Source: Spirochaetota bacterium (GTDB lineage Bacteria; Spirochaetota; Spirochaetia; Treponematales; UBA12059). Taken from it: a DNA stretch of 64,000 nucleotides. Within the stretch, counting starts at the first letter, position 1; each line of letters begins with the position of its first letter. The translations under genes and the position numbers were made by a program. This document shows positions 11,368-15,770 of the stretch, one piece after another. The stretch covers positions 1-64,000 of the forward strand of contig JAPLSN010000032.1 in assembly GCA_026398615.1 (NCBI GenBank), written 5' to 3'. The notes below the pieces were generated by a model. It saw nothing but the letters and a program-made list of their open reading frames with translations. It was not told the DNA's origin and made no database searches.

Positions 11368-13434
11368 TCAGAACTCCTCGAAATCGTCGTCGTCCTTGCC
11401 GGCGGCGGGTTTTGCCTTGAGCACGATGGCGGTCGGCTTGGCCTGCCCGGCTCCCGCGACGTGCGGGCTTTCCGCGGCGTGCGCGGCTGCCGCCGTAGTG
11501 ATGGCTTTTCTTTCCGCGAGCGACTTGATATGGGCCACTTTGACCTCGTGCCTGCCTGCGTCGGCCGTGACCCTGGCTGTCCCTGCGTCCTTGTCCTTGT
11601 TGGCGGCGAGCTTGAAGAAAGCGATGGCGTCGGCCAGCTGGACCGACTGGCCCGAAAGTTCCTGGGCCATGCTCGCCATCTCCTCGGAGGCGCTCGCGTT
11701 CTGCTGGATGACGTTGTCCAGCTGGGTGATGGCGCGGCCGATCTGGTCGGCGCCCGTGCTCTGCTCGCGCGAGGCGCTGGAGATCTCCTGGATCAGCTCC
11801 GAGGTCTTGCGGATGTCCGGAACGATCTTCTGGATGAGGGCGCCCGCCTGCGTGGCGGTGGCCACCGTGGACTTGGACAGCTCGGTGATCTCGCCCGCGG
11901 CCTTCTGGCTCCGCTCCGCCAGCTTCCTGACCTCGGAGGCCACCACCGCGAAGCCCTTGCCCGCCTCGCCGGCGCGCGCCGCCTCGATGGCCGCGTTGAG
12001 CGCCAGGAGGTTCGTGTTCCGCGCGATCTCGTCGATGATGGAGATGCGGCTGGCGATCTCGTTCATGGCGCCCACCGCCTGCATGACCGTGTTGCCGCCC
12101 GTGGCGCCGTCCTCGGCCGCCTTGCGGGCGATCCCTTCCGTGGCGATGGAATTGTCGGCGTTCTGCTTGATCGACGCGTTCATCTCCTCGATGGACGCCG
12201 AGACTTCCTCGGCGGATGCGGCCTGTTCGGTGGCGCCCTGGCTCATCTGCTGGGCGGTGGAGCTGATCTGCTCGCTGCCGGAGGCCACCTGGTCGGATGC
12301 CGTCTTGATGTCACCCATGATGCGCCGCAGGTTCCCGACCAGTCCGTCCATGGCCTTGCCCAGCGTGCCGATCTCGTCCTTGCGCCGGATGAAGGACGCG
12401 TCCACGTCCCGAATGAGGTCGCCCTGGGCTACCTCCCCGAGCTGCGATACCGCGATGCCGAGCGGTTTGGAGATACTGCGGGCAAACAGGAAAAACAGCA
12501 GAAATGCCACCACCAAGGCGATTCCGGCGATCATCAGGATCAGGTTCCGGATCGCATTGGACGACGCCAGGAACTCCACGTCGGGAACGGTGAGGCCCAC
12601 GCTCCAGCCGGTGATCGCCGACGGCGCATATCCTGCGGTCTTGGCGATGCCCTGGAATACGTATGCATCGACTCCGCTTTCGCCCTTGACCATCTTCGGC
12701 GTGAACGTCGTCATCCCCTCGGCGGTCAGAAGGTTCAGCTTCAGGATGTTGTCCTTGACCGGGTGGGCGACGATGATGCCTTCCTTGTTAATTACAAAAG
12801 CATAACCGGTTTTCCCCATTTTGGCGCTGGCGATCATATCCGTGAGCGCCGTGATGTCGACGAAGTTCGCCAGGACACCGATAACCGCGCCCGACCCTGA
12901 ATAGATGGGGCTTGCCACGGGCACGAACGGCTTTCCCGTCGCCTTGTTGGCGGCCACCTTACCCGTGTTCACCTTGCCCGCCAGCGCCTGCTGGAAATAG
13001 GGGCTTTCGGCGATGGAAACGCCATAATGATCCTTGGAAGATGCGGAAAAAACGATACCATCCATGCCGGCCACGAGAACCGCCTGATAGTCCTCGCCGA
13101 GTCCCTTGGTCGCGATGAACCGGGCCAGCTTCTGGTTGAGGGATTGGATTTCAGCATCGCTTTTGGCAAGTCCCTTTTCCGCGACGGCCATCGCCCCCGC
13201 GATGGTAGCGTTGCCCACGGAAACCTCCACGGCCATTTTCTGCTCGGCCAGGAAAACGCTGTCGATCATCTGGGCGTATTCCTTGGCCCGGCTCGCCATC
13301 TGTTCCCGCGTTATGCCCGTCAGCGCCGCGGAGGCCTGCGTCACCGCGAAAAAGGCCACAATGGCGATCGGCATCAGCACGATCAGTGTTCCCACGAAGA
13401 TCAGTTTCGGCCCGATCTTGATGTTATTCCACAT
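11368..13434 (-). CDS. Methyl-accepting chemotaxis protein with periplasmic dCache sensor
   Basis: The 688-residue receptor has an N-terminal membrane segment (about 9-30), a periplasmic sensor of about 250 residues with the dCache look ([31 protein letters not shown]), a second membrane segment (about 295-318), a HAMP linker, and the cytoplasmic signalling rod. The hairpin tip [23 protein letters not shown] is complete. No CheR-tethering pentapeptide is seen at the C-terminus, which ends in an acidic DDDDFEEF. The ligand is unknown; dCache receptors commonly bind amino acids or other small molecules. GGAGGT precedes the ATG. It forms a two-gene operon with cheW. Confidence 0.93.
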
Positions 13435-13643
13435 ACCCTACCTCCAATATCCAAATGCCGAATCTACGGCGCTTTACCAGCTCGACCATATCCATGTCGA
13501 ATACATCCTCGTACTTTTTCCGGCCGCGCCATCAATCGGGCCACGGCAAAGCATAACGGATGGGACGGCAGATGCAATATCCTTTCTCGGGAAGTTCCAG
13601 GCGCTTTCCCGATCCGATTTCAGAGCCCTTCCCCGTGCGCCGG

Positions 13644-13672
13644 TTGCCGGCGGTACGGGAAACGTATACTAT
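13644..13672 (+). promoter_or_regulatory. Predicted sigma-70 promoter for the exported MBL-fold gene
   Basis: TTGCCG (13644-13649) and TACTAT (13667-13672) are separated by exactly 17 bases and end 40 bases before the ATG at 13712. The rest of the gap 13435-13643 shows nothing definite. Confidence 0.6.
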
Positions 13673-13711
13673 GCGAGGGCGCGGTCCGATGGCCGGGCCG
13701 CTGGAGGATCC

Positions 13712-14446
13712 ATGGGTATCATTCGGAAACCGACCGCCGGAATGACGGTGCTGGCGCTGGGCGCGGCGTTACTGGCGGCGGTAATCCCGACGTTCGGCGC
13801 GGACGGGGCGTCCGCGCAAGGAAAGGGGGCTGCCATGCTCACGTTCATGGGGAGGGCGAGCGTCAAGCTGACGACCGCCTCAGGCCTGGTCATCTACATA
13901 GACCCGTACGCGGGCGACGACTACTCGGCGCCCGCCGATCTCGTGCTCGTCACCCACGGGCACTCCGACCACAACGCGGTCAAGAAGGTCAAACTGAAGG
14001 CCGACGGCGTCATCGTCGCCGCACCCGACGCCGTCCCGAAGGGCCTGTCCCCGAAAACCCTCAAGCGCGGCGAAACGATCCGGATGAAGGGCGTCACCGT
14101 CACGGCGACGGCCGCGTACAACGGGAACCACGGCATCGATTCCACCGTCGGCTTCCTCGTGTCCTTCGATGGAATCGTCGTCTACCATGCCGGCGACACG
14201 TCCAAGATCCCGGAGATGGCCTCTCTCGCCGGCTCGGGCATTTCGTACGCGCTCTTCCCGGTGGACGGCTTCTATAACATGGGGCCCGCGGAAGCCGCCG
14301 AGTGTGCGCTCCTCGTCAAGGCCAAACGTTCCATCCCCATCCACTCGAGCGCGAACGGGCTCTACGATGCCGCGAACTCGCAGGTTTTCAATCCGCCCGG
14401 CGTCATCCGCATGAAACCCGGCGAGTCGATCCCCCTCGAACCCTGA
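13712..14446 (+). CDS. Exported metallo-beta-lactamase-fold hydrolase (UlaG-like)
   Basis: The ATG at 13712 follows GGAGG (13703-13707). It opens a signal peptide: positively charged start, hydrophobic LALGAALLAAVIPTFG, then small residues before AQG, implying export to the periplasm. The mature part has the metal motif THGHSDH (HxHxDH), VYHAGDT with its Asp ligand, and a late HSSANG. This resembles the UlaG/UPF0173 branch of the metallo-beta-lactamase fold, many of which are phosphodiesterases or lactonases; substrate unknown. Most UlaG-like proteins are cytoplasmic, so the signal peptide is unusual. The broken amidotransferase gene starts 9 bases downstream. Confidence 0.8.
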   Translation: MGIIRKPTAGMTVLALGAALLAAVIPTFGADGASAQGKGAAMLTFMGRASVKLTTASGLVIYIDPYAGDDYSAPADLVLVTHGHSDHNAVKKVKLKADGVIVAAPDAVPKGLSPKTLKRGETIRMKGVTVTATAAYNGNHGIDSTVGFLVSFDGIVVYHAGDTSKIPEMASLAGSGISYALFPVDGFYNMGPAEAAECALLVKAKRSIPIHSSANGLYDAANSQVFNPPGVIRMKPGESIPLEP

Positions 14447-14455
14447 AGAAACGCC

Positions 14456-15356
14456 ATGAGGGTGCTGTCGGTCCGTCATTCCTCGCCTTTCGGCGTGCCT
14501 TTCGGCGTGCCTTTCGGCGTGCCTTTCGGCGTGCCTTTCGGCGTGCCTTTCGGCGTGCCTTTCGGCGTGCCTTTCGGCGTGCCTTTCGGCGTGCCTTTCG
14601 GCGTGCCGATTCGGCGTGCCTTTCGGCGTGCCTTTCGGCGTGCCTTTCGGCGTGCCTTTCGGCGTGCCGATCGGTGACAATACCGCCGAAACCCGCTTTA
14701 CCGAGCGCGGCCACGAACTGACCCATCAGTTGTTTTTCGCCGGGGCCCAGGCTCCCGGCATGGATTCCTTCGACGTCCTGGCGGTATTCGGCGGCTACAT
14801 GGGGGCGTACGAGGACGACAAGCATCCCTGGCTGGCCCGGGAACTTTCCTTCGTGGAACGCGCGTGCGCGGCCGGGAAGCCGGTGCTGGGGATCTGCCTC
14901 GGGGCGCAGATCCTCTCGCGCGTGCTCGGTGGGAAAGCATACCGGCATTGCATTCCCGAGTTCGGCTTCCACCCGGTCACCCTCACCGCCGCCGGAAAGT
15001 CCTCGTCGTTCTTCCGCGGCTTCGATCACGAGTTCACGGGCTTCGAATGGCACTTCGACACGTTCGACCTGCCCCCCGGCGCCGTGAGGCTCGCCGAGCG
15101 TCCGACCTGCGTCAACCAGGCGTTCTCCTGGGGCGACCGGGTGCTGGCCACCCAGTTCCACCTCGAGTATACGGGGGAGCAGGTGAGCCGGATGCTCGAG
15201 GAGTCCGCCGCGGGCTTGCCGGCGCCCGGCGCCACAGTGCAGGCTCCCGCCGACATACTCGGCAATCACGGCGGCTTCGAGGCCATCACGCGCGGGATGA
15301 GGATGCTCGTGGACGATTTCCTGGCGTCGGCCTGCCGCGGCGTCGTGCGAGGCTGA
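14456..15356 (+). pseudogene. Class I glutamine amidotransferase, frame broken by an expanded 12-bp repeat
   Basis: The natural N-terminus begins at ATG 14456 (MRVLSVRHSSPFGVP), typical of small class I amidotransferases. The rest, starting IGDNTAETRFTERGHELTH, lies in a different frame. Between them are 15 copies of a 12-bp unit, one of them 13 bases long, which shifts the frame by +1. Reading from 14456 ends at 14677 after 73 codons. The downstream frame is open to 15356 and has the catalytic Cys in GICLGAQ and the His/Glu pair in QFHLEYTGE. In-frame GTG codons inside the repeat (e.g. 14616) lack a ribosome site. The gene is therefore probably inactive or phase-variable; an assembly or sequencing slip is the other explanation. 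Confidence 0.75.
14486..14666 (+). repeat. 12-bp tandem repeat (CCTTTCGGCGTG), 14 perfect copies plus one 13-bp copy
   Basis: Ten perfect units occupy 14486-14605. A 13-base variant (CCGATTCGGCGTG) lies at 14606-14618 and four more perfect units at 14619-14666. In the gene's frame the unit encodes Pro-Phe-Gly-Val. It contains no stop codon in any of the six frames. The odd copy resembles the unique sequence following the array (CCGATCGG), as if the array edge had itself been duplicated with one extra base. Confidence 0.97.
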
Positions 15357-15419: not shown

Positions 15420-15770
15420 TCAGTCGCGGATGAAGTGGGGCATGTTCGTGGGCAGTTCGAGCGAAAGCTCGACGAGACCCGCGGGAACGTCGCTTCCTTC
15501 CTCGTACCAGGGCGACTGGAAGATGAGCTTCCGCACGCCCTTCTTTTCTATCGTGTAGACGTTGGGCTTGCCGCTTTCGAGGATCCCGCGGATGATCTCC
15601 TTGGAGCGTTCCTTGTGGCAGGCCATCAGATCCTTACCGACGAGGGACTGTCCCCCGTCGGAGGCGAAGGTCGCGGCGGACTTGTCGTTGAGGTAGCGGA
15701 TGGCGTGGTCGCGGTCGCTCACGGTGACCGCGCCGGGAAAGCGCTTGACCCAGTCGGGGTCGTTCTGCAT
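15420..15770 (-). CDS. Small PAS-like single-domain protein
   Basis: A 116-residue protein opens with WVKRFPGAVTVSDRDHAIRYLNDKSAATF, which fits the start of a PAS fold. It continues with LVGKDLMACHKE and ends with a strand-rich region. PAS domains sense small molecules or redox state. No output domain is attached, so it may work as a stand-alone sensor or partner protein. ATG 15770 is chosen because it follows GGAG (minus strand, 15780-15777) and begins the conserved region; a longer reading frame upstream is only a shadow of the NUDIX gene. It is divergent from the NUDIX gene. Confidence 0.65.
   Translation of the reverse strand: MQNDPDWVKRFPGAVTVSDRDHAIRYLNDKSAATFASDGGQSLVGKDLMACHKERSKEIIRGILESGKPNVYTIEKKGVRKLIFQSPWYEEGSDVPAGLVELSLELPTNMPHFIRD

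Follow-up and report, generated by a model that had tools for sequence, protein, structure and literature searches.

A 12-bp tandem array with a frame-shifting unit near the start of a class-I glutamine amidotransferase gene in a member of the Spirochaetota

The array and its gene

The 64,000-nucleotide stretch of DNA analysed here (the window) contains a class-I glutamine amidotransferase gene with an array of short tandem repeats close to its 5′ end. The array spans 14485-14665 and consists of fourteen identical 12-mers (GCCTTTCGGCGT) and one 13-mer. TRF reports a tandem repeat at 14485-14668 with a period of 12, 15.2 copies, 97% matches and a score of 352. Together with a unit-by-unit reading, this confirms the count of fifteen 12-base units, one of them 13 bases long, given in a preliminary description of the locus made from the sequence alone, and the coordinates hold. 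The window has 15 near-matches to the 12-base unit against 0.64 expected, with 14 of the 15 exact and inside the array, which is far beyond chance. The features of the locus are as follows.

13106-14446, + strand: metallo-beta-lactamase-fold gene (PF13483, from Pfam), with a signal-peptide-like start further in
14456-14484, + strand: unique N-terminal part (MRVLSVRHSS, the amidotransferase first strand, in the ATG frame), to which homologue starts align
14456-14677, + strand: open reading frame from ATG, 73 codons, with array-derived RRAF repeats near its end, then TGA (frame reading)
14485-14604, + strand: first sub-array, ten identical 12-mers (GCCTTTCGGCGT) read as PFGV repeats in the ATG frame (TRF and unit-by-unit reading)
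14605-14617, + strand: 13-base unit (GCCGATTCGGCGT), +1 frame break, probable duplication seam (GCCGAT in common with the array 3′ border)
14618-14665, + strand: second sub-array, four identical 12-mers (GCCTTTCGGCGT) (unit-by-unit reading)
14666-14677, + strand: sequence directly 3′ of the array (GCCGATCGGTGA), start of the unique part (unit-by-unit reading)
14667-15356, + strand: remainder of the class-I glutamine amidotransferase in the +1 frame, with GICLGAQ (Cys) and QFHLEY (His/Glu) (PF00117, PRK07053-like, PDB matches)

The remainder of the enzyme is readily placed. It matches the Pfam GATase family PF00117 (E=5e-14, exceeding the gathering score) and carries the catalytic Cys in GICLGAQ and the His/Glu pair in QFHLEY, both in the +1 frame. 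The nearest NCBIfam model is PRK07053 (E=4.4e-46), where the query, which is without the first strand, scores 157.1 bits and does not reach the curated cut-off of 250. Structure matches are to solved amidotransferases (PDB 9xfs, E=7e-34; 1o1y, E=3e-27). Much like PRK07053-like amidotransferases of PF00117 (9xfs, 1o1y), the gene retains the catalytic region, the Cys and His/Glu motifs and the length of the remainder, but here the first strand is cut off from the remainder by the array and is out of frame with it. The original placement of the array at the join of first strand and remainder is supported. Upstream, nine bases separate the amidotransferase ATG from the stop codon of the metallo-beta-lactamase-fold gene, whose last base is 14446. 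Downstream, a short open reading frame on the opposite strand (15423-15770, −) looks PAS-like by eye (FPGAVTVSDRDHAIRYLNDKSA) and has no Pfam match at 0.001.

Reading frames across the array

Translation from the ATG would give MRVLSVRHSS(PFGV)10 PI(RRAF)..., ending at the TGA at 14675-14677, and a Pfam search with this 73-codon product (14456-14677) returned no match. The catalytic frame is +1 relative to the ATG and is open from after a TGA at 14457-14459 to the TGA at 15354-15356. It contains no ATG, GTG or TTG ahead of the 13-mer, its earliest start codon being the GTG at 14616. The first strand and the remainder therefore do not share one continuous frame, as the ATG frame ends at 14677 and the remainder lies in +1. 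No stop codon occurs within the array in any frame. Frame reading thus upholds two earlier observations, that the 13-base unit shifts the frame by +1 and that the repeat unit is free of stops in all frames. Past the break, the downstream frame runs for 228 codons without a stop, with GC by codon position of 0.67/0.48/0.87; a stop-free frame with a coding-type third position is what would be expected if the frame break is young.

Homologues and the ancestral number of units

Eleven homologues were compared, ten from relatives in the family and order and one from Paenibacillus. A search for close orthologues with which to compare copy number found none: the best relatives are approximately 47% identical and belong to other genera, and a scan of genome contigs gave distant ones only. 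None of the 11 homologues has such an array in the segment that links first strand and first helix. Homologues begin MRYLLVRHGPP, MRFLFIRHSP and similar, equally far from a conserved GGYM, and nine of them have 45 residues from the conserved [R/Q/V/K]H to GG, the remaining two having 49 and 52. Joining the window flanks with zero units (HSS-P-IGD, counting the Pro at 14667) gives 45 residues, while retaining one PFGV gives 49. Since the zero-unit join restores the usual spacing, the ancestor most simply had no unit, and the ancestral gene probably carried zero PFGV units, not one. The preliminary description had joined the flanks with a single Pro-Phe-Gly-Val and proposed one ancestral copy, which the homologue spacing does not favor.

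At the loci of the homologues, within approximately 1.5 kb on each side, there is no metallo-beta-lactamase-fold neighbour. The pairing with the amidotransferase is therefore not conserved, and a conserved operon of the two genes was rejected.

A 20-mer of the array has no further occurrence in the source genome, and a search of 293 other genomes of the order, among them all 22 listed family members, did not find it; a 27-mer was not found in IMG/VR contigs. In the sets covered, these searches exclude a broader family built on this repeat. The absence of the array from the 293 genomes of the order and from the 11 homologues makes it a derived feature.

The odd unit as a duplication seam

The 13-mer begins with GCCGAT, the same six bases with which the 3′ border of the array opens, 14666-14671 (GCCGATCGG). 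A match with a period of 61 extends over 62 bases (14549-14610 versus 14610-14671). Most of it is a trivial consequence of the array; what is informative is GA in place of TT in both copies, plus its position. The 13-mer is thus probably the seam of one 61-bp tandem duplication that ends at the 3′ border, rather than the site of a stray base. The two copies of the putative duplicated segment would be as follows.

14550-14610, + strand: upstream copy of the inferred 61-bp segment (period-61 match)
14611-14671, + strand: downstream copy of the inferred 61-bp segment (period-61 match)

As 61 is 5 × 12 + 1, a duplication of this length moves the frame by +1. If the 13-mer is such a seam, the frame break would be a derived, secondary event on an array that had formerly been in frame. 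An independent substitution and insertion could also have produced the odd unit.

The main rival explanation is an error of assembly or consensus, which would have introduced the extra base, or the layout of the two sub-arrays as a whole, into a true 12-bp array of a gene that is really in frame. The source genome is a draft of 43 contigs (3.38 Mb, estimated 99% complete), and the perfectly periodic stretch exceeds 120 bp, close to the limit that short-read k-mers can span. Tandem repeats are described as a recognised cause of misassembly (PMC6868369), and the downstream frame is wholly intact. The odd unit, however, is not a change in homopolymer length, and its specific GCCGAT matches the array border, a seam that mis-joined k-mers of the array could also yield. 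We regard such an error as unlikely, while giving it real weight.

Origin of the array

There are possible explanations for the growth of the array in its sequence. The unit itself is a short inverted repeat (GCC-TTTC-GGC), and adjacent units fold into longer stems that include G-T pairs. Single-strand folding is better than that of dinucleotide shuffles (z=-3.05 as DNA, z=-4.55 as RNA), a comparison in which repeated palindromes always tend to come out ahead. Replicative polymerases have been described to slip in vitro on templates that combine a hairpin with short direct repeats (PMC4134008). Codon choice within the array is uniform: all fourteen 12-mers use CCT (4.3 per 1000 in the window) and none the usual CCG (23.3). 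Because the 12-mers are identical, with the rare CCT in each, their sequence suggests an array that is young or homogenised and bears no trace of age or synonymous drift.

We consider it probable, if well short of settled, that a recent hairpin-assisted minisatellite expansion was followed by an out-of-frame duplication, leaving a recently disabled gene. In the loop that follows the first strand, a 12-bp motif prone to form hairpins would have expanded by replication slippage, each step preserving the frame as the unit comprises four codons (Pro-Phe-Gly-Val). A 61-bp piece reaching from the array interior to the 3′ border (GCCGAT end) would subsequently have been tandemly duplicated out of register, creating the 13-base seam and the +1 frame. 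The product from the ATG would then be a 73-residue repeat peptide, the enzyme would no longer be made in one piece, and the locus would be a newly formed pseudogene or one of the alleles in the population. Recent decay, one of two options in the preliminary description, is accordingly the likeliest reading, its recency being a point that we infer.

The array resembles the intragenic minisatellites of bacteria (in-frame VNTRs) in its head-to-tail identical units, whose length is a multiple of three, in its coding location and in being slippage-prone. A constant 12-base unit within the coding region is found in 14 of the 15 units, whereas the remaining 13-base unit breaks the frame, and the array occupies the first loop of an enzyme that is small and compact, not a surface or linker region. 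If real, the locus is a clean snapshot of a hairpin-prone minisatellite growing harmlessly in frame within an enzyme gene, which one out-of-register duplication then kills.

Expression across the break

One hypothesis that would spare the enzyme is leaky expression, either by +1 frameshifting at a GCC TTT CGG after the seam or from an internal GTG start (14616-14664). After the seam, the ATG frame repeats GCC TTT CGG, at which tRNA-Phe could slip onto TTC. In-frame GTG codons stand at 14616, 14628, 14640, 14652 and 14664, and the downstream frame is intact. However, CGG, the codon that follows TTT-C, is common in the genes of the window (22 per 1000) and is therefore not a hungry codon, and the TTT-C sites have no adjacent stop codon. 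The GTG codons of the repeat are without Shine-Dalgarno-like sequence, and starts at them would lose the first strand of the fold. The arrangement is found in no relative, and nothing at the shift site is conserved. No long homopolymer that would allow transcriptional slippage is present at the locus. Taken together, these points make continued production of the enzyme improbable. A stronger form of the proposal makes the array a hairpin-built translational device, through which ribosomes pass in any frame and a fraction shift +1 at the recurrent TTT-C sites; array length or structure would then set the amount of amidotransferase. To this form we give almost no credence.

The other option raised at the outset was a slippage-controlled switch. 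In simple-sequence contingency loci such as those of Neisseria and Haemophilus, units are not multiples of three and single steps switch the frame. The present array is alike in lying near the 5′ end of a gene whose remaining frame depends on the repeat, but its ordinary 12-base steps keep the frame. As 12 is a multiple of 3 (four codons), a change in copy number cannot switch the frame, which sets the locus apart from an ordinary slippage switch; the frame would shift only if the odd 13-base unit were gained or lost. A contingency (phase-variation) locus would therefore have to turn the enzyme on and off by recombination or slippage between the sub-arrays that adds or removes this unit. Identical sub-arrays on both sides would make its loss by slippage plausible, but re-forming it needs a rare illegitimate event, so that such a switch would be mostly one-way. 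Moreover, the enzyme is neither a surface nor a restriction-modification gene, and the array is not conserved in relatives. Phase variation here thus seems very doubtful, and the recent expansion and duplication described above remain the preferred account.

Tandem repeats in the source genome

For comparison, TRF was run on approximately 415 kb of the source genome, drawn as stretches of 20 contigs and including the window. The array is by far the strongest tandem repeat in this sample (score 352, next best 201), in which just one further array reaches five copies or more. On this sample, a generally array-rich genome is rejected. The minisatellite expansion is an isolated one, in an enzyme gene that is ordinary in other respects, and opens no long-standing question; a locus of this kind can be misread as a frame switch or be a product of assembly. 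The next strongest repeats in the same genome are two arrays close together (L062:16115-16479, G000:C18), of 81 bp × 1.9 and 33 bp × 3.2.
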